A stretch of DNA of 64,000 nt from Branchiostoma floridae (taxonomy: Eukaryota; Chordata; Leptocardii; Amphioxiformes; Branchiostomatidae), in assembly GCF_000003815.2 (NCBI RefSeq), contig NC_049985.1:10514206-10578205 (forward strand), written 5' to 3'. Below are positions 17,565-58,123 of this stretch, one piece after another; position 1 is the stretch's first letter, and each line of letters opens with the position of its first letter. The notes beneath the pieces were generated by a model. It did no database searches, was not told where the DNA came from, and was given only the letters and a program-made list of their open reading frames with translations. Both the position numbers and the translations under genes were made by a program.

Positions 17565-20500
17565 ATGGGATCTGGTTCGTCCTCAACAAAGCAGACAAAC
17601 GTGCCGCCAGTTCACAATCCTGCTCCACCTGTCTACACACCTGTACCTCAGTATGCACAGGTAAGGGTTTTACCGTAACACCTGTACCTCGGTATACACA
17701 GGTAGGAGTTCTACCGTAATACTTCTTTCTTAGTATATATAGGTAAGGGTTCTACACTCCTGTATAGGTAATGATTCTACACACCTGTACCTCAGTATGC
17801 ACAGGTAAGGGTTTTACCGTAACACCTGTACCTCAGTATGCACAGGTAAGGGTTTTACCGTAACACCTGTACCTCAGTATGCACAGGTAAGGGTTTTACC
17901 GTAACACCTGTACCTCAGTATGCACAGGTAAGGGTTTTACCGTAACACCTGTACCTCAGTATGCACAGGTAAGGGTTTTACCGTAACACCTGTACCTCAG
18001 TATGCACAGGTAAGGGTTTTACCGTAACACCTGTACCTCAGTATGCACAGGTAAGGGTTTTACCGTAACACCTGTACCTCGGTATACACTGGTAGGAGTT
18101 CTACCGTAATACTTCTTTCTTAGTATAGGTAAGGGTTCTACACTCCCGTATAGGTAATGATTCTACACACCTGTACCTCAATATGCACAGGTAAGGGTAC
18201 AGATAAGGGTTCTTCACCTGTAGCACGTAAGGCTGGATCATTCTTCTTAAGAAAAAAACTAAGTCACCCTTTGTCCCTTTGTTTGGTACCAAATGGCCAT
18301 TTTTGGGGACCTGGCCCATGGACTAAATAGGGTTTCTTTGTGATATGAAAGTATTTACATGTTATAAGCCTTCGTCTGGACCACTATTCCAATACTGTGG
18401 AGCGGCAAGGGACCATACGGAAAAGAGTATGACTTGTCATCTGACATGTACGTACATGAATTTGTATAATTCTTTCGCTGGCAAAAGGTGCTTTATTTCA
18501 CAGTCATTGTAGTATCAACATTTTAGCATAGGAGACTGTACAAATGATAATTGGTAACTGGACGTTTTCTTTTTTACCATCAGCCCGTCCCCCAGCAGCA
18601 GGTGTACTACATGCACCCGTGGCCGCCGCCTGGGACACCGCCTCACGGGGGGCAGTCAACACCCCCTCCTCCCACACAGGTAACTAATCTCCAACCAGAT
18701 CCACAGTGCGTAATGTATAGTATCGACTCCCTTAGCCGGCTACACTCCTTGGCCCGCTTTGATACTATCTTATGGCACCGTAAGATCTGCTTGGAGATTA
18801 ACAGGTAACGTGATGAACTCAAGCATGAAGTTTAATCTAAAACCCGTTAATGCATCCTACATATCAGAGAATGCTCTTTCCTTTAGATTTGGGTATTTCA
18901 TCGTGTGATACGGGCAAGTATTGCCCGTAGGAATGGAGCGTCTATCGCAATTTGTGGAAGGCAGTTTGTTCAAGCTGTGCTGTATTCTACCATGCCTACA
19001 GTGGACAGACGGTGACCGGTGTCCCCGTGTCCTGGAGGGGCCGGACTACCTGCCCGACGTCCCTGATGACGTAGCCGACAGGTGGAAGCTCACCTGCAGG
19101 ATGTGCAGTTTACACATGAACGACGAGGTACCGGGCATTTTCTTTTTTTTGGCGACGCCTCAAGGACGGAGTCTATGAACAAGTATTGCAATATTCCAAA
19201 ATTGGTCTTTCGGTACAATCGTGTTCACACTTTGTACCGTGTTCACACAGAGCTTGAAAGACCGTTCTTGTTATGAGTACCGAAAACTCTGTCTTGTCTT
19301 TGTGGACTATCACAGCTCTTTGTGCTTTGTGCCATTTAACCCTACAAGAAAGGAAGTATTGTTTTAGGCGTGTGTGTTTGTGTGTGTTGTTCCGAATGTG
19401 TGATCAGCATAGCTTACATTTTTTTATGAGGGTAGGGGCTAGGAAGGCGAAGGTCAAGGTCAAGATTAGGTCCCTTGGCGCGTGACCCTGTTTCAATAAA
19501 GTTCTAAGAATATATAACTTTGTAACAGATAACCCAGCGTGCGCTGCCCACGCCGGAGGGCATGCTGACGTACTCCGTACACCGCCATGGTCACGTGCCC
19601 ATGCACGTCATCCACACGCCAGAACCGTACTCAGACAAGACAGCCTTCACGGAACTGGACAACCACGCCATCAAGGTAGGACAGAAGTCACAGAACAGAG
19701 CAGTAAGAACAGAATATATAATAGAATATGGTAATATTGATCTGCTTTGTTAAACATCATAGCGTTAGTGTACTAGTGGCATCACTTTCAAACTCAGTGC
19801 CACAAGATGATAAATAATAATGGTTTCGAATTCTTGCAACTTCTTGCCCGAGGGCTAAGTACATTTTGTAACATAAAATGGAACGGACAAATCGCGTAGA
19901 ACAATATAGCATGTGTCTACTCTAGTCTAAAAGCTACCTCTAAAAATTGTATCTTTTTTGTTCCGACTTCTTTTTCTGAGACGATGGAAGACGAAGGATC
20001 CCACCTTTTCTATAATGATTCTATAGTGTATGGGTTTTGTGATGTTAGGAGGAGGGTAGCTTTTTTTTGGTATCAAAACTTCTTACGAATCTTAAATGTG
20101 CTATACACCAGGGCGTGTAGTACTAGTATCTTGTGTATTTTTATGCCCTTTCTTGTCCACCAAACACCTCTAGACGCCCACCCACCTGAATGCGGACTTC
20201 AGCCGGCTGGTGACCTACCTGGTGCAGCCGGCGCGCACGGAGCTGCAGAGGGCCCGGGTCCTGTTCCGCTGGGTCTCCGCACAGAACGTCAGCAACATGC
20301 GCCTCCCCGACCAGCCGCAGGAAAACACTCCCGAATGGTACCTCAAGCAGATCCAGCAGAAAAAGACTTACCTGTATCCTGTTCTCTTCCTAAACCTGTG
20401 CAGGTAAATGTAGCAATCAATACGTCGATGCAAGTTATACATCCAGGCCATAAGATACACAACACAAAAGTAATTCAAGCAGCTGTATAGCTTTTGTAAA

Positions 20501-23500
20501 CTCATTGAAAGTTCGCAGACTTATCTACTCCTAACTGTACTGTAACTGCATAAGTTTACAAAAGAGTAGAACTTTGAATTGTGTTGTAGCAATTCATGTT
20601 TTCCATGTACTATGAAACACAAGACGTCCCCCCCTTCCCTTGCTCCTTTTTAGAAATTCCAATAAATAGTCATACAATGCCGTCAACGTCAAGCAAATCT
20701 ACGAGTCTCTTCAGTCAGTATGTTACTTTTTTTTGGTTATAATATGAGGTACTGCTTTTTACCTAATTCCAGACATGCAGGCCTAACGTGCAGCTACGTC
20801 CGTGGATACGCCAAGAGCGCCCGACTCTTCCCCGGTACCAAGTACGTAGGGACCGAGCCGATGGGCACGTGGACCGTGGTGCGCATAGACGGGTGTTGGG
20901 GGTTCGTGGACTCTCACTGGGGATCCTTTTCCGTCATCGACGATGACGACGACAAAGAGTTAGAAGATCTGCAGTCTCAAATCGCTATTGACGAGTTCTA
21001 CTTCCTTCCTAACCCTCTCCACTACCTGAGTTCACACTGCCCCAGCGATCCGAGCTGGCAGCTCATCGACAACCCCATACCGCTTAGCGACTTTGAGGCC
21101 CACGTGAAATGTAACCAGCGGTTCTTCGCACACAAGCTACGGCTGCTAAGTCACCACAACGGTCTTGTAGAGACAGTGGACGGCACAGTGGACCTCTACA
21201 TCGGATATCGACCAGAAGACGAGGACATCCAGTTCTATTATAACCTGAAGACCAAGGAAGAACGGTCACGATGGAGGGGAATCAAACTGGACAGGTTCGT
21301 CACGCAACAGAGAAAGAAGGGCGCAGCCGTCTTCAACATCACCCCTCCGGAGAAAGGAAGGTTTCTGTTCGAGCTCTTCTTTGGGCTGAAGGGACAAAGT
21401 TTCTATCACTACGCGTGCGAGTACATGATCCTGTGTTCCCAGGCGTTGCCTCAGGAAGAAAACGACCCCATACCGGCATGGAAGGGCATCTGGGGACCCG
21501 GGAAGATGGTAGTGGAGAAAGGAATGGTGGCAGTGTCTCACAAATCTCCATACGTACAGTGTCCGAACGGAAAAGCAGAGATAGTCTTCTCCTCACCCGG
21601 AAATCACAACTTTCTCGCGAAGCTGTACGAGACTTCGATGGACGAAACGCACCTGAAGCGTTACGTGGCACACGAGATCATCGACGACCAAGTGAAGTTT
21701 TACGTCAACCTACCAAAAGCGGGCAAGCACGGTCTTGGTATCTTCACGCAAGAAGGTAACGACGAGAATGCGTACGCCCTGCTGTGTAACTACATCACAC
21801 AGTGCCAGGCAGATGAATCTTCTATCAACGAGCAGCCTTTTCCAGCGGTGCCGAGAGGTCGCTTCGGTCCGGTCCTTCCCGACTTCCAAGAACTTGGTCT
21901 CTCCGCAGTCGGCAGCGCGTTCGTAGAGTGTGAAACGGGAGAACTTCAGTTGAGTCTGAAAGGCAGTCACGCGCTGACGTACAGCCACGAACTGTTCTGG
22001 GAGACGCTGAACGAGAAGGTGAACATGAGCGAGTACGTCCAGAGACAAGTCGTGGACGGAAACGTGGAATTCCTCCTCCGTCTTCCCCGTATCGGGATGT
22101 ACCGTCTCGCCGTGTATGCTCAGACAGCGGGAAGCACCGGCGCGCCAAGAAACGTCTACAACTACTGCATCAATTGTACGGGCACGCAACTTGATGTAGA
22201 GCCTTTCCCAGCGGCCAGCGCTACTTTTGTGGAACCGGCACTGAGCCACGAGGACACAGAGGAACGGTTCATCCAATCAGAGCACGGTGACATCAAAATA
22301 GTCTTCGGCAAAGGAACACCAAAAGGCATCGAGCACAAACTAATCTGTCTTATGGACGGCGAGGAAGTAGATGTGTCTTCCTACGCCTTCATCCAAGACA
22401 ATCCTGACAACGGAGAGGAAACCGTCGTGCACTTACGTCTTAAAGAAGCTGGCAAGTACAAGCTGTCGCTGTCCACCAAGGACCCAGACCAAGAAGGACG
22501 AACCACGTTTTCCAGTTACGTCATCCAGACCACGAAGGGTATGGAAGACTGTGTGGAGTTTCCGGAGAGGCTGCTCGGCTGGTGGAGTGACTACCAGATG
22601 CACGAACCGCTGTCCCGTTTCCTCAAGGCGAAGGAGACCTTCACCTTCAAGGGCTGCTTTCCAAGGGCGTCAGAAGTCGCGGTGATGCTGCCGACATCAG
22701 AGTGGATCCAGCTGAAGAAAGGGGATGGCAATGAGTGGGAGGAAGTGGTGACCATGCCGGGGAACAAGTACGTTGGCCAGGCGGTCACCGTCAACGTGCT
22801 TCCCGATACAGAAGACGGAGACTACACGGAGGTCTTGGGATATGTCGTGGAAAAAGGTGTGAATCATATTATCATGTCATATCATATCATATCATATCAT
22901 ATCATATCATATCATATCATATCATATCATATCATATCACCAGAGTTTCTAAAGAGAGAGTCTATGAGAATCTACAATGAGAGTCTATGTTGTGTTAGGC
23001 GCGTACGCTATACCCTCCAGTGACTGTCCAGCTTTGACTTGAAGCTTGACTTTTGGCTTTATCATGGAAACAAGGCGTTTTTTTAGTAATTGTCTTTGTT
23101 GTGTTCATATCAATTCCTTTGTGAATAAATAGAAATTCCTTTGTAACTTTCCCTTCTATATTTTCTTTAACATAAAAAGGCGAAGACACGGGACACGAGG
23201 AGGAGGACCAGATAACGCGTCTAGAAGAAGAAGACACGGAGGAAGACTTGTTTGAGGGACAGATGGAAGAGTACCAGCTCGTCTTGAGACAGCACCGCCG
23301 GACCATCGCGGATGAGATGAACCCGGAGAAGGTCATCCCCAGGTTTGAGGAGAACAGGTTCATTGATGAGGAAGAGGCGCTGGAGCTGACTGAACAACTT
23401 CCTGACAACCCGAACGAGGTCAACAAGCAGCTGCTAAATGTAAGTGGAACCTACAAACGGGGTCTCTATTGACAGGAATGTCCTGTTAATAGTGCAAACA

Positions 23501-26396
23501 TTCTTGACAGGAACATCATGTAGATGTTACAAACATTCGTATTGACAGGAAAATCATGTCAATAGGGCCAAACGTTTTTTTTTAGTATTAGGAACATCTT
23601 GCCAATATTGTCAAATATTCTTGTTGACAGAAACATCCTGTCAATAGTGCAAATAGTTTTATTGATAGGAAAGTGTTACCAATATTGTCAATTGTTCTTA
23701 GCAGCAGAAGCTGGGTGGTAATAGTGCTTATTGACAGGGATATCTTGTAAATGTTGCAAAACAATCTTATTGACAGGAACATTCTGCGAATAATGCAAAA
23801 AACTCTGACAATTGCCTCAGCATTCCTAGATTGTTTAGTTTAGTTGATGTTATCCAAAAGCTGTTTGATGACTAAGGTCTTCTCTTGTTATTTTGTAGGT
23901 GGTGCAGAGAGAGGGAGAAGATGCCTTCGTCACACTCCGTGACGTCATGAAAGAAACGGGACAGGACAAAATCATGGAAGTCATCGAGGATGTGGTGATT
24001 GTGGTACCCAACAATAAATGTAAGCATCATTGCAATCATGAATACAACAAATCCCATATGGTCTAGTGGTTAGGATTTGGCGCTCTCACCGCCAAGGCCC
24101 GGGTTCGATTCCCGGTGTGGGAAAGTATACATTTTTCTACGTTTTATTTATTTCTACGACTATTTCTTTAAATTCACTATTTCTTTAGATTCACTATTTC
24201 TTTAGATTCGCTATTTCTTTACATTCACTATTTCTGTAGATTCATTATTTCTTTATGTGCATGCACCTTATACGCGCCTTATTTTACATGCTTTCTTACT
24301 TGATCTCCGTTATACTCTAGATGACAAGCTGCGGAAGAAGCTTGCTGAGGCGATGCTCGCCAAGAACAAGGGGAGGCTGGAGCAGATCATGGCGGAGTGT
24401 CGCGAGCAGGGGATGGACGAGGAGGACGATGTCTTGAAGGAGGCACAGAGAACTCTGGACCTAATCGAAGCCCGTCAAGGTAAAATTTGAGTTGATGGAT
24501 AAATAGGAGCTTAGATATATTGTGTGGACACAAGTAGATGTTAAGATAGGGTTTTGTGTCGTATCTGATTACAGAAATGGAGACAGTACAAAATCTGTAA
24601 GCACCATTGCAGTATGTTGTGTAACAAATCCCATATAGTCTAGTGGTTAGGATTTGGCGCTCTCACCGCCAAGGCCCGGGTTCGATTCCCGGTGTGGGAA
24701 ACTGTACATTTTTCCAAGTTTATACATTTCATCACATTTATCTAGATTGATCATTTGTTATGATTGGCTATTTTTAGATGATTGCACAAAGATATGATTG
24801 ATTGCATTACTTGTAACTATAGGACTCAAAAAGGCCATCAAAACACGGCACAGAGACCAACTCCAAGCTGCAGTCAAAGCCGCCAAACCGTTCAAGAACG
24901 AGCTCCGGAAGCACATGAACGAAGCAGAAGAAATCCTTGACAAGATCAAACGTCTCGACAAGTTACGTCACGCCATCATGGCCATGAACCAGGCGACCAT
25001 CGCGGAGATCAAGACGTACAACAACCCTCCTCCTGCCGTCTACAAGGTCATGATGGCGACCTTCCTGTTGCTAGGCAACACCATGGCACAGGTCAACGTA
25101 AGTAGCCTGGCAGTTTATGTTTTTGTGTTCTCTTTTAGACTTTTTTTTATTGTACATTGCAACTGAGGTTACGATATGCATTCATTTACACAATTATAGG
25201 AGCGATTAAAGAACTGATGACTTATAAGTTTTAAAACATAAATAACTTATTGAAATGCAAAAAGGCCATTGAGCTGGGATCGGTTACGGGGGGTATCATA
25301 CTTACGCTTCGCTTCGTTCGAGCGACTTGACGGAGTGGTAAACGGATTACAACGATGAAAAAGTTCATTTTGTTTTACACTTTGTGTGTTTTGTTATCAT
25401 TTTATTCATATGTGTACTTTGATATTCCCAGCACATAGTCAAGGGTAACACAAATTCAATTTAGAACCCAGCGGCGTCGCCAACATAACGCAGTCCTGCT
25501 CTAGATAATGTATTACAATGCGGTATGGCAGGAAGGGGTGGTGGTTGTAACCTATGTTTACAAACTTTGTTTGATTATAGATTTTTGATAATGCACTTTC
25601 CAAAATAACACTTTATTCTGGACGTTAAAACTGACTTTAACCCTGTGTCTTACCGTCCACCAGGACTGGGTGTCCCTCCTAGCTCTGATCGGTAAGACGG
25701 GACGGCAGAGCCTGAAGCGGCGGGTGAAGAACTGCGAGCCGGCTAACATCTCATCGGAGACCGCCGAGGAAGCCAAGCAGTGCCTGGGAGACCTCAGTCT
25801 GGATGGCGTCCGGGACCAAAGTTCAGGAGCAGCTACCTTCTATGTCTGGGTAAGCATGAACTCCAAATCAGCCTGTCACTGGCCCCTTTCCACTATACAG
25901 TGGCTGTACAGCGACCAAAACTTGGGATTGTGTGGACCTTGATTTTACAATTTGAATTATGATGCAAGATGTACATGTAGAAGTATGATTTCGAACGTAG
26001 TGTAGAAAAATACGAATTTGATCTTTCTTCTTTATCTATGAAACTAGTCGAGCAACTGTCAAATCTTTATTCGCTCACCGTTAGCAGCATCTACCAGTCA
26101 ATACACAAGGAAGAACCCTGTCCTTGGTGCTGAACACGATACACATGCTAAACGTGAAAATTGTGCCCTCCTGCGCAACAAGTCCCTGTCGTCGATGTTG
26201 ATATCTCGTGCAAACTAGAAATCGTCTCCTGTCACAATAGCTGTATGAATGTAATTATCGCAGTAATGTAGTCACAACCTTGTACTGAATCTCAACCTTG
26301 TTTGTCCGCTTTGCTTTGTAGTCGGTGGGGACGATCAGCGAGGTGGAGGAGATGGCTCTTACCAAGCAAAAGGCAAACTCGAAAGCCACCGGGTGA
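17565..26396 (+). CDS. KYL1: KY/hillarin-type pseudo-transglutaminase with CARD-like and dynein-stalk-like tail
   Basis: Twelve exons: 17565-17660, 18584-18679, 19002-19127, 19529-19675, 20174-20403, 20773-22856, 23180-23439, 23899-24019, 24321-24479, 24823-25097, 25664-25849, 26322-26396. Total 3855 nt, 1284 residues, one frame, GT-AG throughout. Residues 1-6 (MGSGSS) fit N-myristoylation. Residues 13-64 are Pro/Gln-rich with a PPVY motif. Cys96 and Cys99 form a CxxC. Residues 156 to about 300 are the transglutaminase-like core: the Cys position reads T in TYLYPVLFLNLC, the His position reads G in GTWTVV, and Asp stays in VDSHWGS. The FYFLPNP and SWQLIDNP segments are KY/hillarin hallmarks. 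About five KY beta repeats fill one 2084-nt exon. A CARD-like domain spans about 955-1045, followed by two helical hairpins and the dynein-stalk-like end (about 1160-1284). The start is the first ATG after an acceptor at 17543. A possible poly(A) signal is at 27024. Role unknown; scaffold proposed. Confidence 0.85.
17636..18205 (+). repeat. 41-bp minisatellite that repeats the exon-1 end and its splice donor
   Basis: The first unit is the last 20-odd bases of KYL1 exon 1 plus the start of the intron. Seven identical 41-bp units follow (about 17783-18066), with diverged units on both sides. Each perfect unit contains CTCAGTATGCACAG followed by GTAAGG, an intact 5' splice site. A diverged three-unit block (CGGTATAC, TTCTTTCTTAG, CCTGTATAGG types) occurs on each side of the perfect core, giving a symmetrical higher-order layout. 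Confidence 0.9.
18680..18808. mobile_element. Small foldback element abutting the KYL1 exon 2 donor
   Basis: Inverted ends GGTAACTAATCTCCAACCAGAT and, at the right in reverse complement, GTTACCTGTTAATCTCCAAGC, around a core with CCCTTAGCCGGCTACACTCC. The left end coincides with the donor of exon 2 (ACACAG then GTAACT), so the splice site lies at the element edge. Confidence 0.6.
22877..22938 (+). repeat. (ATATC)n pentanucleotide microsatellite
   Basis: About twelve perfect ATATC units starting 20 bp inside KYL1 intron 6. A 5-bp unit read in threes repeats every 15 bp, and this frame has no stop, so the giant exon stays open through the repeat (encoding ...SYHII... units) to a stop near 23021. 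Confidence 0.95.
23266..24001 (+). other. CARD-like domain of KYL1 (two exons)
   Basis: Encoded by the end of exon 7 and by exon 8. The predicted six-helix pattern begins EEYQLVLRQHRRTIADEM, continues through a KVIPRFEENRFIDEEEA segment like the gvlt-xee region of CARDs, and ends LLNVVQREGEDAF and MKETGQDKIMEVI. Spacing and hydrophobic positions resemble CARDs such as that of CRADD. The intron falls after LLN in phase 0, the same place as in KYL2 and KYL3. The call is by eye; another death-fold subtype is possible. Confidence 0.7.
23466..23808 (+). repeat. About 39-bp minisatellite in KYL1 intron 7
   Basis: Roughly nine diverged units of the form TTGACAGGAACATCCTGTCAATAGTGCAAA. Each unit is partly palindromic (TTGACAGGAA...TCCTGTCAA). 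The intron interrupts the CARD-like domain. Confidence 0.8.
24052..24123 (+). tRNA. tRNA-Glu (CTC), copy 1
   Basis: 72 nt, intron-less. Acceptor stem TCCCATA pairs with TGTGGGA (one T-G pair), followed by discriminator A. The D arm reads GGTCTAGTGGTTAGG, the anticodon arm GGCGCTCTCACCGCC with anticodon CTC, and the T arm CCGGGTTCGATTCCCGG, which also forms the B box. It lies in sense orientation in KYL1 intron 8. A nearby pol III terminator is weak (TTTTT at about 24132). Confidence 0.96.
24160..24255 (+). repeat. 17-bp pyrimidine-rich tandem repeat
   Basis: About six units of TCACTATTTCTTTAGAT just downstream of tRNA-Glu copy 1 and about 65 bp before the exon 9 acceptor. The repeat supplies several extra CTTTAG acceptor-like sites. 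Confidence 0.75.
24629..24700 (+). tRNA. tRNA-Glu (CTC), copy 2
   Basis: Differs from copy 1 by one base in the linker before the D stem (CATATAGTC versus CATATGGTC); all stems and anticodon CTC are kept. It sits in KYL1 intron 9, 577 bp downstream of copy 1. Flanks are similar on both sides (TAAGCA-CATTGCA and AACAAATCCCATAT before; GTACATTTTTC or TATACATTTTTC after), so flanking DNA was duplicated with the gene. Confidence 0.96.
24985..26393 (+). other. Dynein-stalk (MTBD)-like C-terminus of KYL1
   Basis: Encoded by the end of exon 10 and by exons 11 and 12. Residue order follows the dynein heavy-chain microtubule-binding domain: ATIAEIKTYNNPPPAV (dynein: D-I-x-E-x-K-x-x-K-x-P-P-x-x-V), VMMATFLLLG, DWVSLLALIGKTGRQSL, a PANIS segment, DGVRDQSSGAATFYVW, then EVEEM. 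The protein ends where the second stalk coiled coil would begin in dynein. Microtubule binding is inferred only. Confidence 0.65.
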
Positions 26397-28509
26397 TTTC
26401 TATGTAATACAGAAGCAAATGTATTAACTATTACAACTAAGGGGACCTTTTGACCCCCTTTTGTATTGCTTATGGGATTAAATGATGCCTGACACGGTGA
26501 CATGGTTGTATAATACCCGGAATGGCAGTATATGATATGCTCTGAATAGCGTAACCACGAAAACGTCACATCTGTTAAGAAGGAATGTTTTGGAAGTCTA
26601 GAAATAACGCTTCGTGTGACCCTTTATCCTTGCAATAGAAAACACTGACAAAGACATGAACCTGTTAGGTTTGTATATTTGAATATGTCACATCTCTAGA
26701 AGTTTAACAAGATTTGCGTTATTTTCTCTTAAATACGTATCTGGCGAAATGTATAAATGTTTGTGTGTACAAAGAAGCATTATTCTAAACACTGTGGGGC
26801 TGAAGTAATCAGAAAATGTGCGTAAAACGTGCTAAAGGGTATACACGTGCCTTGATCAACTCAATGAATACGATCCAATTGCGTTTTGTATAAAATGATG
26901 TCATGTGTAAGATTTCTGTGTAAGATGTAAAAGAAGGAGATATGGTACAGAAATGCAGTATGGCTTTCCGCTCCACGTTGGTAAGAAATGGTTATTTAAA
27001 CGACATGTTATTCTCTCAATACAAATAAACGAGGCTTTTATTAAGCTTATCAGCAAATAGTTTACAGTCTTTTACTTGACAGCTCTGACCAAAAGCCCTT
27101 ATCGGCGTCTCCTGGTAACCTGTTACAGTGTTGTTGTAAGGTTACTGTTCCATTATAATCTCTCTCCAAGGGATGTATTGTTCAGTTTCTTTTCTATATG
27201 TGTTATGTTATAAAGTTTAAACTGGTATCCTAACAAGGCCAAAAGCGGTCATAACATACCCGTGATGGGTTGGTTTTAATCAAATGGAAATATTCCTAAC
27301 GGACGTGTCGAGTAAAACCCAACCAGAGTGGAGTAACAATGACGACAAGGGAAACTTGTAAACATGTTTGTACTTTAGGAAAGGACCTTTGTATAGGAAA
27401 TGCCAACATAAAGGCACTGTTTTAATTTTGTCGTTATGTCAACAAACGTTGCTACAAACATCACGATCGGAGCATTGTCATAGGCACAGTAAGGAAAAAT
27501 AGTTTTCGCCATGAGGATGGGTGGCCTCGGACAAGGAGTTTCACGACTTGATTTCTCTCTGTCAATTTACTTGTTGCCAACTGTGGAGACATCCAGCTAC
27601 TAAAGTAAGTTTGCTGGCATTTATTTAAGTGACTTGTAAAATTGCCACTTACTAACAATGTGAATAGGTGACGGGAAACAAAAGGATGCCGGAAAAGAGT
27701 GAAGAAAATATTGGCGAAAATGTTTGATGTTTACCTTCGTCTTACGTCTTGTATTGTGTCGTATACTATACTGTTTGCCTAATGTTTTCTTTATGAATGA
27801 CATCCACTGGATCCTACACTAATCTTACGATTCAGCAACATGCCTAAATAGAGTTTATATACGCACACAACGCATATTTACCCATCGTACCTTACATTGA
27901 TACATTTATAATTGGTACCTTTAAAAACTTTATTACTATCAACAAAATATATAATTCTTTCAAATTTGACTTTTATCATGAAAAGTTTAAACTGCAAACT
28001 TTCAAGCTGACATTCAAATAGACCTTTCCGTGCTGTTCTGTTTTTTACTTCAAATTTGTAATCAGACTTGTATTCAAACACTTCCTTAGCAACGGCTATT
28101 CAGAAAGCTAAACATTGAAGATTTAATCAAGACAAAATGTCCGAAAGGCTATCATTAACAACTTCGTCACTCTCTCTTTTTCACATTGAGAGCATGATGA
28201 ACAGCAGTTGAATAGAATAATGAATCACACGTTTTTATTTGGTTATTTGCCCTTTTTTGATTTATATCACATGGAGCTGTGAAAATAAATATCATGACCC
28301 GACCATGAGTACAGGAACACGTCCCATGTATTTGTAGGACGCTTGAGAGTCGAAAACAAAGTACTAAACGATTATGTTGGAGAATTCAAAGCCCCAACTG
28401 CCATTGACGTTACGCACAATGTCCTTTAGACTCGCAATTAGCCATATGTCAACTCATTCAACATTCTTGATGTTCATGTAAGTAGCCATACCTTTTCTTT
28501 AATTTGCAG
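26397..28509. other. KYL1-KYL2 intergenic region
   Basis: About 2.1 kb. The first 630 bp are likely KYL1 3' UTR, with AATAAA at 27024-27029. The rest is AT-rich with no supported exon and should hold the KYL2 promoter and leader. Confidence 0.45.
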
Positions 28510-28526
28510 TTGAACGCAAGACCAAC

Positions 28527-31500
28527 ATGGGGTGTGGCACATCGTCTCTCCAACAACAGCAAACACTGGTGGACAAGGTACGGAGGTGGAATCTAGAAGG
28601 CGATGTAACGTACATCGTAATTTTAAACACTATAATTGACTGGTCGTAACCGTAAGAGTTGGTTAAATTCATACACAAATTTACACATGTTAGCACCCTG
28701 CAGGAGAACTTTATCATATGTACCTGCATATGCATGTACATGTATATAACGTTACTCGATAAATAACACTTAGGGTGGCTAGCAAGTAGCATATGAAATA
28801 TTAACAAGGTGCGTTTCTGTCTTTTTTAAAATCCGCGGATACACAAAGAAGCCTGTTCACGAGTGCTGTATGAAGAAAAGATATGGGCAAAACCTATCCA
28901 AGGAATTAGGCTATATATAGTATTTTGGTAACATTGACCAGGAATAGAATTTCTACAATACTATCACAATCTTTCGTTAGCAACATTTTATACATTTATA
29001 GAGAAAAGAAGTATTACCTGACTGGTTACCTACCGTGCCGGAAGAGGAGAGGGAAGATTGGCCAGCCTACTGTCGAGTGTGTGATCTGGTCGATCATGGG
29101 CAGGTGAGAAATACTCCTACTTAACATTTCATGGTTAGCAGCTCTGAACAGAGACAGGCAGAAAAGGTGACCGGCGATAGAACGACTGGGAATTTGGAGA
29201 ATGTTTGAAGTATGTATTGTATGTTCTTCCAAATGTGTCCTATCCCTAATGTGAGAAGTAGAATGTATACACCATTTTTGCGATACTACCTATCAACGGT
29301 TTATCTTAAGCTTAAGCCTATTAAAATTTGAGATTGGACGGCGATATTGGTGAACTTGCTTGCCTGTATTTACTTACCTCCAGGTTGAAGCGCCCACTTC
29401 GCCAACTCCTGAAGGGATGCTCACTTACACAGTACTGTGCAGCGATGACGTCATCACACACGTCATATACAAACCTACCACATTTGGGCACTGTGGCAGA
29501 TTTGACCACCTTGACGACCATGCCGCAAAAGTAAGCAAGAGCTTTGTAGAGCATAACAGCCATGATAATTTTCTTAAGCAAAATAGCTTTGAAATGCAGT
29601 CTGTCTATGTCGTAGTCCTTTAAATCTTGATTTCTGAAAGTAGATTTCCATCACAATGTCAACAACAAGATGTTTGAAACCACCCCATAGTAGAAGGCAA
29701 CATTGTCCATCAACTGCTATCCACAGATGACCATACTCACGACTACCTCCTAGCCATGGTTTGAAGAAGGTCTGGAGGCCATTTGTGACAGGGGCTTAAT
29801 ACATTTATATCTACTGATGACAGAATCATACTGTCACCCAAGCAACACCAGGACATAGCCAGTTTGATACATATATGATATATTCTGGTTCGTTTACAGG
29901 TCCCTTCCTCACTCATCGATGACTTCACGGCGTTAGTAACGTATTTGATCGGGCCGGCACGAACAGAGCTGGATCGGGTCCGCGTACTGTACGCCTGGGT
30001 CACCTGCCAAGACGTGTCGGTCAACACGGAAGGCGCAACGGAAGACACACCTGGCTGGTACCTGCACAAGATGAGGGAAAGTGAAAGTTACTACCATCTG
30101 TTGTTCTCCACTCTCTGCAGGTATCCTTGGGACCTTCCGTTACTTCTTATACTTCTTAGTTTTATCGGTCTTCATTTCATTGTACTCCTATCCATTTGCT
30201 ATGCAACATGATTCATAATACCAACTGAAATGATACACGTTGTACTTAGACTAAAGAAATCATAGCAATGACTTGAAACACCGAATCATTTCATTTTTCA
30301 CTTGTGTAGACGAAAACGTTCCTGACTTTTATGATCCTGGAAACAAATCGTTAGAAGAGACGAATAAGTTTATCTATGTTGGTTAGTACAAATGCTAACC
30401 CTATCCGTTTCTCACAGCCATGCAGGTGTTCGGTGTCAAACCATTCGTGGCTACGCAAAGACTGCTGACAAACCTCCAAACACGCAGTTCGCAGGGACGT
30501 CCCCTATCAAGCAGTGGACAGCTGTCTGTATTGACGGACGATGGGGCATAGTCGATACTCGCTGGGGCAGTCGTGACTCAGCTGAAGACATGACAACATC
30601 GCCATCATCATCTGACGACACAAACCAACACAACACCAACGAGTTTTACTTCTTACCGCACCCCGCGCAGTACCTGAGCACGTGCTTTCCCGAAGACCCG
30701 GATTGGCAACTCGTACTGAGTCCGATCGAAATCTCTGACTTCGAGACTCATGTTCAGTGCTGGCCTCATTTCTTCGCTTTCGGCCTGTCCTTGTTAAGTC
30801 ACCACCGTGGGGAAGTGCAAACGACAAATGGACAAGCGAAGATCTACATCGGCTGCAATGAAGAAGACATTCGGGCGATAAACTTTGCCTACAGTCTGAC
30901 AGAGTCTTCGGGGTCAGACCGTTGGGAAGGGGCTTCATTGGACAGATTCGTGCTGCAACAGAAGAAGAGAGACGCTGTCGTTTTCAGCATTCAACCACCG
31001 CATAGGGGCGAATATCTTCTCGAGATCTTCGTGGGAAGCCATGACGACAAGACGTGTTACACCGCTTGCGAATACTTAATTGTATGCGATGAAACTAGCA
31101 AGGACGTTTGCCCTCTTCCCGACTGGCCGGGCGATTGGGGCCCTGGGAGCGAGGCGGTTGCTATGGGACTCGTCCCGATATCCCACCCTGCATCCTGTGT
31201 GCGTTGTAAAAGCACGCCGGCATCAATAGAGTTCTCATTGTCACGCGAACTGGATTTCCTAGCCAAACTGTTCGAAGTCAACACGAAAGAGACACGACTA
31301 CGACGGTACGTTGCTCACGAGGTAGCCGATGGTACTGCAACCTTCCACGTGATGCCCCCAAAACAGGGAACGTATGGCCTCGCAATCTACGCTAAGGAAC
31401 GTGGACAGGCAGGGGCCTTTGCTGCGATGTGTAGCTACCTGACGATAGCGGAAGACATGGAACAAGATGCAAAGCCGTTCCCGGACGTTCCAAAGGGCTC

Positions 31501-34406: not shown

Positions 34407-34457
<51 letters not shown>

Positions 34458-46100: not shown

Positions 46101-48758
46101 TCTGCAGTACGCAGTAGGTAAGAAAAAAAAACGGTTGTTTAAACCATTATTACAGCTTGACTTTGAAGCATATTCTGTCATTTAAGAAAAAGGAAGGGCG
46201 AAGGTGCTTTTTAGGAGTTTATGAATAGATATATTCGCTATCATTTGATAACGCCGGTCTTCTGTTTCTGTCGTTTACAGGAGAAGAGTCGTCTCCGGTA
46301 CCTATCATATGGGAAGGCGAAGACGTCGAAGAAGTTCAAGATGTATCAAAAACTGAAGAGGAGCCAAAGCTTCCAACTGACAGAGAACAAGAGGATTCAA
46401 GAGATGAAGAGGGAACAAAGTCTTCAAGTAACGAAGAAGACGGAACAAGAGATGAACAGGAGGTAAAGTCTCCAACAGACGGAGGACAAGAGGATTCAAG
46501 AGATGATGAGCAGCTGAAGTCTCCAAGTAACGAAGACGACAAATCAAGAGATGAAGAGGAACCAGGGTCTCCGGTAGATGTAGGACAAGGTGATTCAAGA
46601 GATGATAAACAGCCAAACACTCCAAGTAACGGAGAAGACACAAGAGATGAAGAGAAGTCAAAGCCTGCTACTAATGGGGAACAAAATGACACAACAGTTG
46701 ATGAGGACCCAGAGTCTTCAACTAATGAGAGAGAAGATGAGTCAAGAAATAACGAGGATTCGAATCCTTCAAATGGAGGACAAGACGATTCAAGAAATGA
46801 AGAGGAGTTGAAGAATCGTACTGATGGAGAACATAATGAGTCAATAGACCACGAGGAGGCAGAACCTTCAATGGATGGTGAAGTAACGGATGAAGACGAG
46901 ACAGAACTTTCACCTGAAAAACAAGGTGACGTAGGAAATGAAGATGAGCTACATGAGCCAATCGATGGGCAAGAGGAAGACTACAAAATCGTCTTGAGAC
47001 AACACCAGGCCACAATCGAGGAAAAGATGAACCCAACGATGGTCATACAGAGGCTCGAACAGGAGGGATTTGTGGACGATGAGGAGGCAGAAGAGTTACT
47101 TCAGATGGTACCGCAAAACCTCCCGGAAGTGAACAGGAATATCCTGGCGGTACGTGCTATTTCCTCGTCGTTGTTGCAAGTGCCCATCAATGGATGAATT
47201 TCAATACCTATATTCCATGGCATATCTTTTCAAAACTAAGGAGGGCTAAACAGTTTTCTGTACTTGTTATTAAACAATTGACTTGAGCATTTGTATATTT
47301 GCACCTTTAGGTTGTTACTCGTGAAGGAGAGGACGCATTCGTCGTCCTCCGTGACGTTATGGAGGAAACCGGTCAGGTCCAGATTGTAGAGCTGATCCAA
47401 CACGTGGACGTGGAAGCGCCGCCCGACGATTCAGGTTTGTCTCTACAATTAATTAGTGATGGTAAAACATTTTGTTTCTTTCTGCTTTATTTTGAAATGA
47501 GTAAGCTCCAACTTTAACTGGCAATGAGATTATAAGGATTTGAAGGTTTCTGAGGGTAGAAATGTTACATAAATCTACTTTTAAAAATGGTGCAAGAGCA
47601 TACCAGTCGTCTTGTGATATAACTTCTCTTAGCTGCACGGGTGAAGAAGAAGCTGCGAGATGCCATGAAAGCCAGGAACAGCAAAAGACTGCGAAACGCC
47701 ATCGATGAGTATAAGGAACTAGGCCTCAGCCCGAAGGAACCCATCTACAAGGAAGCAAAGAAGAGGTTAGGCGTCCTGGAGGGACTCCTGCAGCACCGGC
47801 ACGCCATTCTGAAGATGGAGCCAAAGACCGTCTCTGAGATCAGAGGATACAAGCGCCCCCCTGCGGCTGTCCAACAGGTCATGACGGCTACATTCCTCCT
47901 TCTTGGTCACAGCAAGAAGGAGACAAAGGTAGGATTTCTTCAAAAGACGAAAGTGTAATCATGTACATATCTGTATCTGTATCTGTATCTATATAGCCGG
48001 TATAACCGCCATTCGGCGTAACACACCAGCTTCGCAGGCACGCGGCGCGGCAGCAGCTGGTTATATTACACTGAACGATCCGTCACACCTAACTTTTGCA
48101 CATCTAACTGCAAGCGTTCTTAGGATATAGATAGCCGTATGGAGATTTATAAAGATAAGGCAAAAGAATACATCTCTGATGTCGATGATGTACATAAGAA
48201 GGAACAGAAATGTCTTTGTGGCATTTTGATCTTAGGTAGCGTCAAAGTGTGCAAGAACGGCAATTTCTTTCATTGAGTGACATTATATTTATATTCTTCT
48301 TCACTACAGGAATGGAAATCCCTGCAGGCACTTATGGGCAGGACAGGCAGGGAGAGTCTTAAACGACTAGTCAAGAAGTTCCAACCAAATGATGTTCCAC
48401 ACGGCAAAGTAAAAGCGGCCAAAGCAGAGCTGAAGGATCTGACGAAACAAGACGTCCATGGCGTCAGTGCAGGGGCGGCAACGTTCTTCGTCTGGGTAAG
48501 TTTCACACAACCATATTATCTTGTCGTTTATGAGAAACAGACTATATCTAAAGGAAGGAACCACCTTCCACTGATAGTACAAAGACTGCCATTCATGGAA
48601 CTACGAACCGGTCGATAAACAATGGTAGGTAGAGGCTGAAAAGTATCTATGATCAAGATAGAGAAACAGAGCCATCAGTAGTTGTTAATGATGTCAATTC
48701 TGTTTTGCAGGTAACAGAAATGATAGCTGATGTCGAGGAGAGGGGCAAATCGGAGTAA
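40143..48758 (+). CDS. KYL3: six-repeat KY/hillarin-type protein with long acidic linker, CARD-like and dynein-stalk-like tail
   Basis: Thirteen exons: 40143-40253, 40474-40581, 40731-40847, 41073-41174, 41337-41582, 41798-41933, 42204-42294, 43635-46117, 46281-47149, 47311-47434, 47633-47928, 48310-48495, 48711-48758. Total 4917 nt, 1638 residues. The start MGCGSSK suits myristoylation and palmitoylation. Exons 2-4 encode an acidic Glu/Thr/Asp-rich N-terminal extension absent from the other copies. Exon 5 (246 nt) equals KYL1 exons 3 and 4 without the intron between them. Exons 6 and 7 split what is one exon elsewhere. The core reads NSHVTLLAKMC at the Cys region and GSWVTV at the His region; Asp is kept in IDSAWGS. 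About six KY repeats are followed by an acidic repeat linker (about residues 1132-1360), the CARD-like domain, one hairpin only (the second is deleted) and the stalk-like end. A possible poly(A) signal is at 49463. Confidence 0.85.
42391..43423. mobile_element. Cluster of 52-bp inverted-repeat elements and insertion in KYL3 intron 7
   Basis: Three short palindromic units occur at 42391-42442, 43302-43353 and 43373-43423, each running from CATTATTTCACTAGTAAGA to its mirror TAGTGAAATAATG. The first and third share the left flank CACCCCTCTATC. The DNA between includes a GGACCTGGACC-type simple repeat (about 43106-43170) and the motif GTACCGGTACCCACCCCTAC. This makes the intron, at 1.34 kb, much longer than its counterparts. 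No open frame of a transposase is seen. Confidence 0.6.
46320..46960 (+). repeat. Coding repeat: acidic linker of KYL3
   Basis: Degenerate repeats within exon 9, with recurring DSRDEE / KSPSN / DGGQ motifs (for example EDSRDDEQLKSPSNEDD). Composition is dominated by E, D, S, N, K and Q, predicted disordered and rich in casein-kinase-2-like S/T-x-x-E/D sites. Confidence 0.85.
46973..47415 (+). other. CARD-like domain of KYL3 (two exons)
   Basis: Residues about 1363-1455: EEDYKIVLRQHQATIEEKM, EQEGFVDDEEAEELL, EVNRNILA, then after the phase-0 intron VVTREGEDAFVVLRDVMEETG. It follows the acidic linker directly. Confidence 0.7.
47815..48755 (+). other. Dynein-stalk (MTBD)-like C-terminus of KYL3
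   Basis: KTVSEIRGYKRPPAAV, VMTATFLLLG, EWKSLQALMGRTGRESL, HGVSAGAATFFVW, then VTEMIADVEE. Only one helical hairpin precedes it, so the run-in to the stalk-like part is about 46 residues shorter than in KYL1 and KYL2. Confidence 0.65.
47963..48075 (+). repeat. Interspersed repeat in KYL3 intron 11
   Basis: Begins with an ATCTGT run, then CTATATAGCCGGTATAACCG and CACACCAGCTTCGCAGGCAC. It is the reverse complement of the repeat at 35222-35312. Confidence 0.7.
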
Positions 48759-51653: not shown

Positions 51654-51693
51654 ATTACTACCATAAGCGGGAAGCTGGTATTCACCCGCCATC

Positions 51694-54600
51694 ATGGGAG
51701 GTGGAGCTTCAGTTCAATGGAACAACACCCAGGTAACAAACTCACCTGCTTAAACCTGTCTCCTTAGATAATACGTTTAATCTTTACTGATCTTCAAAGC
51801 GCTTATGCGTCAATTGGTCACTAGGAAAAACGTTCTGCAATGTGTCTACATAAACCCTACCCTATTGTATCACCAAGACTAGTGTGCTTCATCCTAATTC
51901 CACTGACTGCTACTTATTTACGTTTTAAATGTTGAGAAAACAACTAACAGGTATATCTCCTCCAAACAATGCCATTGGGGCCATTTTGTATATATTGCTT
52001 CCTGCATGTGGATAATAATCTATGACTCTCGTTCCAGTGGACGGAGGGTGTTCGGCAGCCCAAGCCTGACCTGGCCACCATGACCCCTGACCCGCCATGG
52101 CAAGCGAACGTACCAGCTGAGCGCATGGAGAAGTGGAGGAAAACTTGCAGAATGTGTGGCGTCTACAATAATGAAAATGTAGGACTTTTCACTTCAAGAC
52201 AGATTTTTCATGAAAATCCCCATACTGCCAAGGAAAATGTTGAAAGTTTTCTCTCATTCTCAGAAAATATAGAGTGAACGCTTACCAAATATGATATAAA
52301 TGCGCACGTCCCTAAATGCTATTCATCCTCAAATAAAACCACCCTCAAATAAAACTACCCTTTCGTGGCAAAGGTGATAAGATTATGAACTCACCACTTG
52401 AACATCTTTCTTTCTTAAAGGTGATCCTTGAAACTACTGAAGAACCAGGAGGTATGCTAACGCGCCCCTTACATCAAACCATTAAAGGGAAGCCTGCTAA
52501 AGTCATCTTCAAACCAAAACCTTACATAGACCACACTGCATTCGAACGCCTGGACCAGTTTGCTCTATCGGTAAGCAAGCATCAAATGCACATTACGCTG
52601 TATGATTCTAGACAGACCGAAAAATATGTTGTTGCATATCCATTCCCCCTCCCTTTATACTCTCTATCATGTTAGCTCAAGTTGTTAGCTAGTGGATTAC
52701 ATTATGGAAAAAACACTGTTCTGTAACTCATGCTCAAGAAATTGGACTCACCTGAATAAAAGGGGGTGTCTACATTAGGGCACATTAGGTTGCCGGGACG
52801 GGAAACGATAAAACTTTTGACCCATTGCTGACGTCATACGTGCAAGTCTCGTATCCAGAACATTTAGATCCAGTATCTGAAAATCCCAGGCTGCGACTCA
52901 AATTTCCTATTGGGATAATTGGCCATAATGTGTCACTCCGCTGTTGTTTCCCAGGCACCACGGTCACTCTACGACGACTTCAGGAAGCTGGCGGCCTTCC
53001 TCACGAAGCCGGCAGCGACAGAGTTGGGGAAGGTTCGAGCCATGTTCTGTTGGGTCGCAGGGCAAGACGTCAACAACATGACCTTTCCAGAGAAAGTTCG
53101 AGACGGCTCGCCAGACTGGTTCTTAAAGGAGATGAAGGAGAAGAAGACGACGGATCTATACTCTGGTCTCTTTAACAAGCTCTGCCGGTACGGTACTGTT
53201 GTTTACCTTTATCAATAGCCTAGATATTATACTTAAAGGTGTCCCTTGGATAAAGGTCGGTAGCAACAGCCAGCTTTCTTGTACATGTATCTACCAAGTG
53301 ATCTATATGTGGACCGACAACCACGATAAGCCCTAAAAATGACAACTTAATCAAAGACACCAGTACACGTTTCTAATGATAATCAATCACTCAATAAATT
53401 GACCAATCGTTGTATTATCTATTGTCTCAGACTCGCAGGAATAAAGTGTCACGTGGTAGACGGGTACGTGAAGACCATACAGCAGCCTCCCGGAACCCGC
53501 TTCCAGGACACCACACCGAACGGGAAGTGGAACGTCGTACTCATCGACGGCTGTTGGGGAATCATTGACGCCCACTGGGGATCCATTCATACACTTGACA
53601 CAAACCTTCAAGAACCTGCCCGGGAAAATACTGGCAACCCCTTTAATGATTTCTACTTTCTGCCTGACCCGCTCCACTACCTCAGCGGGCACTATCCCCA
53701 AGACCCCGTCTGGCAGCTGATAGATTCGCCGGTACCGCTAGAGAACTTTGAACGTCACCTTCACTGTAGGGAGAATTTCTCCACTAATCAATTGACACTG
53801 CTGAGTCACCACAGAGCGGTAGCGTCAACAAAGGAGGGCGAGGCCAACATCTACATCGGTGTTAACAATGACAAGGTGAAGTTGCACTGCAGTCTAAAGA
53901 ACGCAACAGGTGAATCGACCTGGAAGACCATCAAGTTGAGCAGATTTGTGAAACAAGAAGCAAGGAATGGAGCGGCAGTTTTCACCGTCCGCCCGCCAAC
54001 AAGCGGAGACTTCATCCTTGAGTTGTACTCGTCCCCAGATGGAGGCGACAAACAACGGGTTTGTGAGTATCTCATCAGGTGCCTCCGACCGATGAAGGAC
54101 AACAAGCCTTTCCCGTGCTGGGGAGGCCGCTGGGGGCCCGGTAGCGAACTGGAGGCATTTCGTCTAACTCCAACAACACACAAAGGCGCTTACGTCGACT
54201 GCAGGAAAGGGAAGGCTACGATAGAGTTCATCATGGCGCGTGACTTGTCCTTTCGCACGAAGCTTTTTCAAACTTCGTCCGCAGACTCTACTTTCAGCCG
54301 CTATGTTGCTCACGAGATTGTGAACAGCGTCGTCCAATTCAAGATCAGCGCACCGGATGTAGGAATGTTTGGTCTGGGCATCTTTGTCAAGGAACCTGAT
54401 ACCAGCGAGCATTTTCGCCTTGTTTGTAGTTACATTGTGTCAGCTGAGCAACGCGCAGTCGATCCGTCGCCTTTCCCGTCGGTTGGAAACGGTCTTTTCG
54501 GCCCGGTGCAACCTCTGTTTGCGGTTTTAGGCTTGTCCACTAAAAGTCATCACAACGCTTTTATTGAATGTGACACGGGAGAAGTTGAGATCAGAATCAG

Positions 54601-57600
54601 CACGAAAGACGTCCTAAACGTAGCACACGATTTATTTTGGGAGGATTCACAAAAGAAATTAGATCTAGAAATCTTCGTGTACAGAGAGGTCTTAGACAGG
54701 GAGGTGCGCTTATTGATCCGCTTGCCACGCCTCGGAAAATATCGCTTAGCCGTCTACGCCGAAGGGCTGGATCACGAAGGTGATCTTCCAATCGTTTACA
54801 ACTATTGCATCGTTTGCAAGGATAGGACCACACGAAAAGGGCCTTTTCCACCTGTCAGTGGCACCCAATGGGGACGTAGGTTTCCTGCCGCACAGGAATT
54901 GTCACTGGTACCCAAAAGCCATCCAAAATCCGACATTGATGTTGCCGAAGCTCTTGACATAGAGATGCAATTGGAGAATCCCGTCGACCTCAAGTGTTGC
55001 CTGTACATATGGAAAGCTGGCATCAAACCTGAGTACGCTCAACAGTTCATTAAGCATCACACTAAGAACGGAGGGATGCAAACCGTTGTACAGATGACGT
55101 TTCCTCAGGCTGGTAACTACAGCTTAGAGCTCTTTGCCGCCTCCACCGGTTCTCACTACCGAAACGTCATGAACTACTACATACGCTGCCACCAGCCGTC
55201 GGAGGTCTCCCGTCCCATCGGCAAAGGCACAGAAATACATGAAGACAAACTCGATAACATCGGATCAAGCGTCTGGGCTACTACTGGGAGCGAAGAGGAC
55301 AAACCGGAAGACGATTTCCAAGCTAAGTTGGAAAGAGAGATAGAAGAGGAATCCGACGACACTGAAGACAAAGGAGACGTCGATAAGCCAGAAACAAGAG
55401 AATCAGCCGATGATGGGAGATTTGACAACACAGTGGAGAAAGAAAATCTCACTACCGTTAAGGAATTTCTGCCTGTAGATTCGGAGGAAGATGGTGTAAA
55501 TGGCAAAGATCTTGAGAATCACACAGTGCAAAGTAAGAGCACAAAAGAAGACAAATTCAGGAAGACATGTACAGAAGGTCCAACTACAACAACAGAAGAA
55601 GACGACATCATGAAAAAAGCAGATCAAACTACAACAGACGAGATAGACAGCATGAATAACGCAGAGCAAACTACAACGGAAGAAGACGACATCGTGAAGA
55701 CAGCAGGTCAAACTGCAACAAAAGAGGTCGAAAATGTATCGACCGAAGAGGAGCACGACCTAGCTGTCAAGAAACACCAAACTACTAGTATCGCCTTAAA
55801 CCCTGAAATGTATGTCAAACAGCTAATCCCCAGGCTAACGGCTGCCATCAGCTCCAAAAACAGAAACCAACTTGAGAAGCTGCTAGAAGAGCTGAAAGGT
55901 TTACAAGTCGACAAGGAGGACGAACCTATCGTCAGAGAAGCAGAAACCTTGCTGCAGCAGATGGACGTCAGGCAAGGTGGGCCTTTATTTAATGTACTAC
56001 TTTATTACATCAAGATGCCAGTGGTGTTAAATGTGGTAGTAAGCAACCCATGGTGCAGACATGCTCGTTAATGCAACGGCTCATGACATGGACAAATATT
56101 AGAAGGAAATGGTATTGCTTAGTATTGCTAAATGCCAGAAGTGCAAGATAAATTCATCTTCAATATTAATAATAATCTTTATTGCAAATTCATGCCCGAG
56201 GGCTAATTGCATACAAAGTAAAGTAGTAGTGGTATACATAAACATAATTAACAAGAAGGGAAATGATATTCATAGAATGATATTCAAATGATATTCATAC
56301 TTCAATAAGCCCTTGCTAATTGCATACGGTCTGTGCTCGTTTGCGACACATATTTTGTTTCAGAATAGCAGATGCACTTACTTTAAATTCCTTTCCAACA
56401 TTCCTATTAACTTTATTTGCAGCTCTGCGTGATGCGATCTCTTCCAAACTCAAGGAAACCCTGGAGAAAGCCATAGCCAGTGCCGAGCCGTTTAAACGTG
56501 ACGTACAGGAGGACATGCAAGAGGCGAAAATGACTGTCAGCCTCATTGACCTAACGGCCGCCATCAGCGCACAAAACACTAGTCAACTCGAGAAGTTGCT
56601 GGAAGAGCTAAAAGATCAAGAGGTCGACGATGAGGGCGAAACCATCATTAGAGAGGCAAAGATTTTGCTGAAGCGACTGGAAGTCGTGCAAGGTGGGGTT
56701 TTGTTTAATTTTTTTTGTTGCAACCCGTGGTTTAAAATAAAACCGTCAGTATGGCTAATGGGTGGGTACTTGGTATTGGAATGATAGGGTATTACTCAAT
56801 GCCACCAATAGTTAATGTTGAATGTTTTTTGTGCAAGATGTTTTGTATCCGTCCGCTGCAGACATTTTGTCTTCTACAACATATAATGTTACATTTTTTC
56901 ACAAATAGATGCGCACATCCTTCAATACTATCATTATATTTGATATAATTTTCAGCTCTACGTGATGCTATCACTTCTAAACACATAGAGGACCTGGAGA
57001 AGGCCATATACAGTGCCGAGCCCTTTGCACTGGACCTGGAGGACGACCTTCAAGAGGCGAAACGGATTCTCCATCACATCAAGCGTCTGGAGAAACTGCG
57101 TCAGGGTATCCAACAGCTGAACCTGAAGACTCTAGCGGAGATCAGGGGGTACGCGCGACCTCCTCAGGCGGTCCTGAAGGTCATGACCGCGACGCTTATT
57201 CTGCTGGGAAACATCAATGGCAACGGACAGGTAACAAGAACACTGCACTATGCGTCATGTTATGCCTTCACCAGTCCTCAATGGTTCCAAAGTTTGTGTA
57301 AAATTATTAGCATTGCTATGTGTACAGTTATGTCTCATGTTATCAATTATAAACGTGCTTCCTTTATTATTAATTTTTACATGAGATTCTTTACGTTAAG
57401 CTTAGGGCATAAACGCAACAGTTGTACCACTCAATTTCTAACACAACGTCGTCACACAGAGGTAAACATATTGTACTTTCCGTGACTTACACTGTTCACT
57501 CCCGTACAGGGCTGGTCGTCAGTCAAGACTCTGATGGGAGGAAATGGCCGAGGGACTCTGATACGCCGGGTCAACGAACTCAACCCGGTAGGCATCACAC

Positions 57601-58123
57601 TTGCGATGGCATCAGAGGCTGAAAAACAGCTGAAGGACCTCACCTTGGACGATGTGACAGCCGTAAGCACGGGAGCGGCAGCTTTCTATATCTGGGTATG
57701 TGTTATCTATGTCTTATGTATGATTAGAGGTATACACGCTGGTGTCTGTTTATAAGGTTGGTTTAAGTTAAGGGTCCTAGAGACCAATATTTGCGTGTAA
57801 AGCGGAGGGGAGTAGAAGACCGTGGCAGTTCAGTACCAAGGACAGGTCTGATGTGTCCACAGCACGGACACTATCTAAAATTACTTCAAGATTCAACAGC
57901 AACTTAATTGGTTTGATACAGTTAAAAGAATAAAATATAAAGAACAATGTATTCTCTGTATCGGCTAAAACGTGTGATAAACAAATGTTAATGTTTCCAG
58001 ACTTCCGCGTCTGTGTGAATGACAAGTTTATCTTTCTTCCAGGCGAAGGGCATGATTGAAGAAGTTCAGAAGGAAGCACATGTACCACCTTTGGGGTTAA
58101 AGAGCGCAGTTGCTGTGACCTGA
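51694..58123 (+). CDS. KYL4: four-repeat KY/hillarin-type protein with truncated CARD, duplicated hairpins and dynein-stalk-like tail
   Basis: Nine exons: 51694-51732, 52038-52178, 52421-52570, 52955-53187, 53431-55976, 56423-56692, 56956-57230, 57510-57695, 58043-58123. Total 3921 nt, 1306 residues. The start MGGGAS fits myristoylation without the extra Cys. A CxxC occurs in TCRMCGV. The core has TDLYSGLFNKLC at the Cys region and GKWNVV at the His region; Asp is kept in IDAHWGS. Four KY repeats are present and the terminal HEP-type KY domain of the other copies is missing. A linker carries 14-residue repeats (QTTTEEDDIMKKAD type). At residues about 961-990 only the first CARD helices remain (EEHDLAVKKH through KQLIPRL), joined directly to hairpin A. 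The hairpin pair is then duplicated (A-B-A'-B'). The gene is open and splices cleanly, so it is not a pseudogene on this evidence. A possible poly(A) signal is at 58990. Confidence 0.85.
55567..55745 (+). repeat. 14-residue coding repeat in the KYL4 linker
   Basis: Three to four units of 42 nt encoding QTTTDEIDSMNNAE, QTTTEEDDIVKTAG and related peptides, immediately before the CARD remnant. It differs in sequence and period from the acidic repeat at the equivalent place in KYL3. Confidence 0.8.
57120..58120 (+). other. Dynein-stalk (MTBD)-like C-terminus of KYL4
   Basis: KTLAEIRGYARPPQAV, VMTATLILLG, GWSSVKTLMGGNGRGTL, a PVGIT segment, DDVTAVSTGAAAFYIW, then AKGMIEEVQ. The first exon is 275 nt as in KYL1 and KYL2, although the upstream CARD is lost, so this end is maintained independently of the CARD. 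Confidence 0.65.

Follow-up and report, generated by a model that had tools for sequence, protein, structure and literature searches.

The 64,000-nucleotide stretch of the Branchiostoma floridae genome analyzed here (C7:10514206-10578205 of a 513 Mb genome; the window, with positions counted from its first letter) contains a tandem array of four genes on the + strand, named A (17565-26396), B (28527-36617), C (40143-48758), and D (51694-58123). Their proteins share one domain order: a Met-Gly (MG) start, a CxxC segment, a KY/hillarin transglutaminase-like core, 4 to 7 Ig-like_KY repeats, a CARD (largely lost in D), helical hairpins, and an end resembling the microtubule-binding domain (MTBD) of dynein. 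Both the array and this domain architecture are well supported. KY, CARD, and dynein heads are known singly; what is new is their combination, on a KY-type protein, and the family would seem to represent a scaffold of a new kind. Regarding function, we infer, tentatively and with somewhat less than even confidence, a cytosolic, myristoylated pseudoenzyme scaffold that would couple CARD assembly to a microtubule-docking head.

The four matching exon sets were found by an all-against-all comparison of the open frames of the window, and the models were built from splice-site scoring and agreement among the paralogues. The scoring covered most junctions; for three front junctions of gene A (exons 1 to 4), which were placed by hand, the sequence and the paralogues served as guides, and exon 3 of this gene has a weak donor. 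The models are complete, run from an in-frame ATG to a single terminal stop through GT-AG introns, and encode proteins of 1284 (A, 12 exons), 1621 (B, 10 exons), 1529 (C, 10 exons), and 1306 aa (D, 9 exons), with pairwise identities of 33-44% and common intron phases. The chance of the 1174 codons of the big exon of gene B being stop-free is about 2e-25, and none of 2000 shuffles was open. The start exons, also in two further genes, E and F, described below, were chosen as ATGGG followed by a phase-0 donor, so the MG end rests on paralogue agreement and not on transcripts.

A sequence-only reading of the same DNA had proposed four same-strand genes at 17565-58123 with this order of domains, spliced in frame by hand. 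The complete models confirm the genes at these places and their splicing in frame, from ATG to stop through GT-AG introns, as well as the CxxC segment, the core (by alignment), and the hairpins followed by a dynein-stalk-like end in 4/4 proteins; the MGxxxS start is also found in 4/4, on the grounds just given. The claim of 4-8 KY repeats held in that repeats were found in all four proteins, but their numbers (4, 7, 5, and 4) never reach 8, and the CARD claimed for every gene is present in A, B, and C but only as a remnant of about 25 residues in D. The CARD and the dynein head had been recognized by eye, with the proviso that profile and structure searches finding neither would speak against the idea; profile searches support both, so the profile part of this objection does not arise.

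Several of the joins between the rear domains lie inside single exons. The KY repeats run on into half a CARD within one exon in B and within one 604-codon open frame in E; one exon of D encodes the repeats and a hairpin, and in each of A, B, C, and D one exon encodes a hairpin and half of the head. The front exons (start, CxxC, first core half) are joined by splicing. Other junctions fall within the CARD and within the head; an intron divides each of these domains, and only splicing can bring the two halves together. Pooling all copies, the CARD-to-hairpin join is the only one of the rear half without a bridging exon, and in D the KY part continues straight into a hairpin. These joins, together with the repetition of the order in copies E and F, make it very improbable that neighbouring independent genes, or products of prediction error, have been joined by hand, as claimed for many lancelet domain combinations in a published warning (PMC4967905, in its accessible part), even though our models were built from sequence. 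Even less credible is that the genes are decaying pseudogenes, as the loss of the CARD in D and a locus on C3 with only fragments resembling the end of gene C might suggest, since the four long open models show no frame break.

The N-termini follow the pattern MGxGxS (MGGGAS in D), reading MGSGSSST in A (exon 1, 17565-17660, with possible N-myristoylation), MGCGTSS in B (exon 1, 28527-28577), MGCGSSK in C (exon 1, 40143-40253), and MGGGASVQ in D (exon 1, 51694-51732). In intron 1 of gene A, a 41-base tandem repeat (17637-18109) copies the end of exon 1 including the splice donor, which leaves more than one donor site to choose from. Gene A continues with a proline-rich exon 2 (18584-18679), the CxxC segment in exon 3 (19002-19127, with the weak, hand-set donor), and the N-terminal KY region in exon 4 (19529-19675); the last two segments are encoded by exons 2-3 in B (29002-29103 and 29384-29530), exon 2 in C (41337-41582), and exons 2-3 in D (52038-52178 and 52421-52570). 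The first half of the core lies in exon 5 of A (20174-20403), exon 4 of B (29900-30120), exons 3-4 of C (41798-41933 and 42204-42294), and exon 4 of D (52955-53187). The big exon that follows encodes the second half of the core and the repeats: exon 6 in A (20773-22856, 4 repeats), exon 5 in B (30418-33940, a single exon with 7 repeats at 30734-33370 and the first half of the CARD from 33761), exon 5 in C (43635-46117, 5 repeats at 43945-45819 and a less certain further beta domain), and exon 5 in D (53431-55976, 4 repeats at 53738-55216, then a linker, the CARD remnant, and a hairpin). No transmembrane-like stretch was found in A-D.

The repeats are matched by Pfam Ig-like_KY (PF23265, cut-off 27) in 4 (A), 7 (B), 5 (C), and 4 (D) stretches, with 237 to 448 bits. 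Pfam Transglut_core (cut-off 23 bits) was run on A and B, where the score was over the cut-off in B (28.3) and under it in A (20.1); in C and D, the core was identified by alignment only. In A-D, E, F, and a related gene on C4, other residues occupy the sites of the catalytic Cys and His, with the Asp kept, whereas all three residues are kept in 3/3 KY genes read on C18; the triad positions are those of the transglutaminase fold, read off these C18 genes. Since Cys and His are replaced, the KY-like core of A-D is probably a pseudoenzyme. As of 2018, no direct evidence of activity of vertebrate KY on an endogenous substrate had been reported, according to the accessible part of PMC6078408. The front of B (305 aa, containing the core) gave no match among PDB sequences at E<=1. 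AlphaFold modelled the big exon of C with a mean pLDDT (per-residue confidence) of 70.6, the first 109 residues (half of the core) being below 50, and the strands of the model may be read as five Ig-like units plus the less certain further beta domain. The Foldseek matches of this model are Ig strings such as those of the titin I-band, the axonemal central pair, and cell-adhesion chains; whole-chain TM (structural similarity) scores are low (E 8.5e-19, but a TM of only 0.08).

The CARD scored over the Pfam cut-off (PF00619, 23.9 bits) in A (31.5), C (25.0), E (32.2), and F (28.1). It is weak in B, with no Pfam CARD match and only CARD_2 at E 0.11, and in D the alignment shows the remnant, which lay outside the Pfam scan, ahead of the hairpin. 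Altogether, the CARD is kept in 5/6 family copies, four of them over the cut-off. Two exons encode it in each of A, B, and C, with a phase-0 intron at the same position: exons 7 (23180-23439, CARD from 23260) and 8 (23899-24019) in A, exon 5 and exon 6 (34088-34211) in B, and exons 6 (46281-47149, an acidic repeat linker and then the CARD from 46970) and 7 (47311-47434) in C. Because introns split the domains, Pfam on single exons gave no CARD match and weak or no matches to the dynein family MT, and joined exons were needed. A profile of the A, B, and C CARDs retrieved 16 PDB sequences at E<=1, all of them chains of CED-3, CARD11, RIG-I, Apaf-1, or MDA5, although these matches are weak (best E 0.17). 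The long acidic linker of gene C is coded by a 99-base tandem repeat (46354-46663), in which the Pfam scan found no family. In addition, two nearly identical tRNA-Glu genes were found in introns of gene A (24052-24123 and 24629-24700, +) and a tRNA-Asn gene in an intron of gene B (34389-34464, -); one of the former and the latter occupy the matching intron 3' of the CARD.

The tail starts with hairpin 1 in exon 9 of A (24321-24479) and exon 7 of B (34529-34687), followed by hairpin 2 and the first half of the MTBD-like head in exon 10 of A (24823-25097) and exon 8 of B (34870-35144). A single hairpin precedes the first half of the head in exon 8 of C (47633-47928), and in D, exon 6 (56423-56692) encodes hairpins and exon 7 (56956-57230) a hairpin and the first half of the head. 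The second half of the head lies in exon 11 of A (25664-25849), 9 of B (35603-35788), 9 of C (48310-48495), and 8 of D (57510-57695), and a short end with the stop in exon 12 of A (26322-26396), 10 of B (36540-36617), 10 of C (48711-48758), and 9 of D (58043-58123).

A head profile built on 10 copies in the same genome (profile A5, without gene F and without the L048 locus on C10) retrieved 49 PDB sequences at E<=0.1, each of which is a dynein heavy chain or a construct of one. A few were deposited under different names (AAA+ ATPase domain-containing protein, DHC2, IDAf-alpha, Heavy chain alpha, MKIAA0325, and one radial spoke name), and these we take to be dyneins from their length and entry. 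With a profile of the A-D tails, 51 PDB rows were obtained at E<=1, the first 34 being dynein heavy chains and the other 17 mixed and weak, with two further dynein constructs among them. A hidden Markov model of eight tails gave 30.4 and 28.3 bits to two dynein heads of the same genome versus at most 4.7 in 400 shuffles, and Pfam MT (PF12777) matched 8/10 members at E<=1. AlphaFold modelled the first head exon of gene A, which is half a domain, with a pLDDT of 79.6 as a long helix followed by a short one, a Pro-Pro turn, and another helix, an order that fits dynein; a structure search with this half-head model alone gave no significant match.

The gene models end soon after the head, with 15-26 residues following and no long second coiled-coil strand (CC2), and no AAA+ family was found in the exons scanned with Pfam. 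The lack of the long stalk, together with a sequence far from dynein that stays under the Pfam cut-off in the window genes and a low net charge of the head in A and D, would fit a scaffold as proposed above whose head no longer binds microtubules and has another partner. We consider this unlikely; against it, the 10 copies in the genome share a conserved head core, including the motifs T-x-x-E-[IL]-x-x-Y and S-x-G-A-A.

The family was compared within its own genome, by searches that detect exons only, so that all counts are lower bounds; whole models are those of A-D. Matches to PF23265 numbered 54 and were distributed over C7, C4, C18, and C2. Two further genes with the whole order, E (minus strand) and F (plus strand), were found at C7:12.60-12.63 Mb, 2 Mb from the array, their MG starts being candidates. 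In the upstream part of E (L051), an extra transglutaminase-like exon lies between the candidate MG start and the remainder. The four genes of the window are part of a family of at least six related members. In a midpoint-rooted tree of the core end and first repeat (10 rows, with C2 and a second C4 gene left out), the six C7 genes grouped together (87/90), joined by the C4 gene (100/100), and the three C18 KY genes fell outside. The front of the C4 gene resembles that of the array genes, with MGSGSSKK as its candidate start and neither the Cys nor the His, and the gene ends right after its last beta domain, where the CARD would begin; CARD and tail searches of the genome list nothing on C4.

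Head matches without KY nearby were found on C3, C18, C10 (twice), C204, C14, C5, and C2, those on C3 and C18 covering the second half only. At the other six loci, the intron before the Trp and the intron after the final Trp match those of A-D (place and phase judged from the sequence at 6/6), and the CARD search of the genome showed none near these non-KY cassette loci. The C3 fragments (L047 482-1909), which share 69-86% identity with the end of gene C, have perhaps moved recently; the KY matches listed include none on C3. Pfam on 20 chosen open frames of the other cassette carriers (L048-L050, L054-L056), cassette exons included, found none over the cut-off; a weak CD20-like membrane frame upstream of the C2 cassette (L055 3649-3927) is under it (E 9.4e-4). 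A dynein gene as the direct donor of the tail exons was rejected, as the intron is elsewhere in the three dynein genes read, about 11-12 residues later than in A-D, where it lies just before the conserved Trp. We propose that a short, triad-less gene of KY/hillarin type may have been extended at its 3' side by a CARD and a ready-made, mobile C-terminal cassette of hairpins and a motor-less dynein-type head, and then multiplied. Compared with the sequence-only reading, the order of domains was right and a four-gene family stands within the window, but the loss of Cys and His from the core, the loss of the CARD in D, the size of the family, and the sharing of the tail cassette with other genes had been overlooked.

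Upstream of the array, two similar TLC-domain frames were found, one over the Pfam cut-off (14726-15070, +) and the other just under it (7899-8300, -), as well as a sulfotransferase family frame (1053-1538, -) over its cut-off.

Among known systems, KY (kyphoscoliosis peptidase) and hillarin share with A-D the transglutaminase-like core followed by Ig-like_KY repeats (PF23265), whereas A-D lack the catalytic Cys and His, have 4-7 repeats, and add a CARD (a remnant in D) and a dynein-type tail; vertebrate KY and hillarin are not known to have either addition. The CARDs of A, C, E, and F score as CARD proteins over the curated cut-off, but here the CARD is in the middle of the protein and no caspase, NACHT, or helicase domain was found in the parts scanned. 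The end of the first coiled-coil strand (CC1) and the head align to the stalk and MTBD of dynein heavy chains, but with no AAA+ motor in the parts scanned and almost no CC2. Lancelets are described as having novel death-fold combinations (PMC2575513; CARD with AIG1 and HINT, PMC12373286; both in their accessible parts), and A-D resemble these in the shuffling of domains around a death-fold domain; the main texts of both papers, as far as accessible, contain no word starting with "transglut" or "dynein". No description of the KY–CARD–dynein-tip order was found in the literature within reach, which includes subscription papers only in part, and among it the accessible parts of PMC2575513, PMC12373286, PMC6078408, PMC8195603, and PMC4987762.

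In the scaffold proposed here, the protein would be cytosolic and anchored to membranes through N-myristoylation, with the KY core and repeats serving as a binding arm and not as an enzyme. The CARDs would join like to like and nucleate an assembly with a CARD partner, which could be a caspase, an adaptor, or each other, and the MTBD-like head would dock this assembly on microtubules; D, without a CARD, may serve to space such assemblies or to restrain them. Innate immunity or cell death would be the most likely process, a hypothesis that the sequence-only reading had also offered, and a purely mechanical role, as in vertebrate KY, is less likely. Three points weigh against this proposal: the tails of the window are under the Pfam MT cut-off (best 21.9 versus 24 bits), no window exon is among those listed by the MT search of the whole genome, and the data agree nearly as well with a mechanical role.

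As such a mechanical linker of the cytoskeleton, the protein would tie membranes or actin-linked partners to microtubules, in the manner of vertebrate KY at the Z-disc, and the CARD would only oligomerize, with no immune or death role. Vertebrate KY is located at the Z-disc together with filamin C (PMC6078408, in its accessible part), the KY repeats resemble titin-like Ig strings in the Foldseek comparison above, with its low whole-chain TM score, D keeps everything except the CARD, and the CARD search showed none near the non-KY cassette loci. Against these stands the retention of the CARD in five of the six copies, four with scores over the cut-off, and we regard the mechanical alternative as somewhat less likely than the scaffold proposal. 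More doubtful than either is a broader version of the scaffold proposal, in which a dynein tip would have escaped its motor and become a mobile C-terminal docking cassette; in this family, it would bring a CARD platform anchored to membranes onto microtubules, whose network might then steer death-fold assembly through a single polypeptide.

If true, the scaffold proposal would provide a direct, one-protein link from death-fold signalling to microtubules, in a lineage used for inferring the ancestral chordate immune system. The family also shows a dynein head reused without its motor, and the parts of the fusion are traceable in one genome, from KY genes with the triad and a short form without it to cassette carriers without KY.
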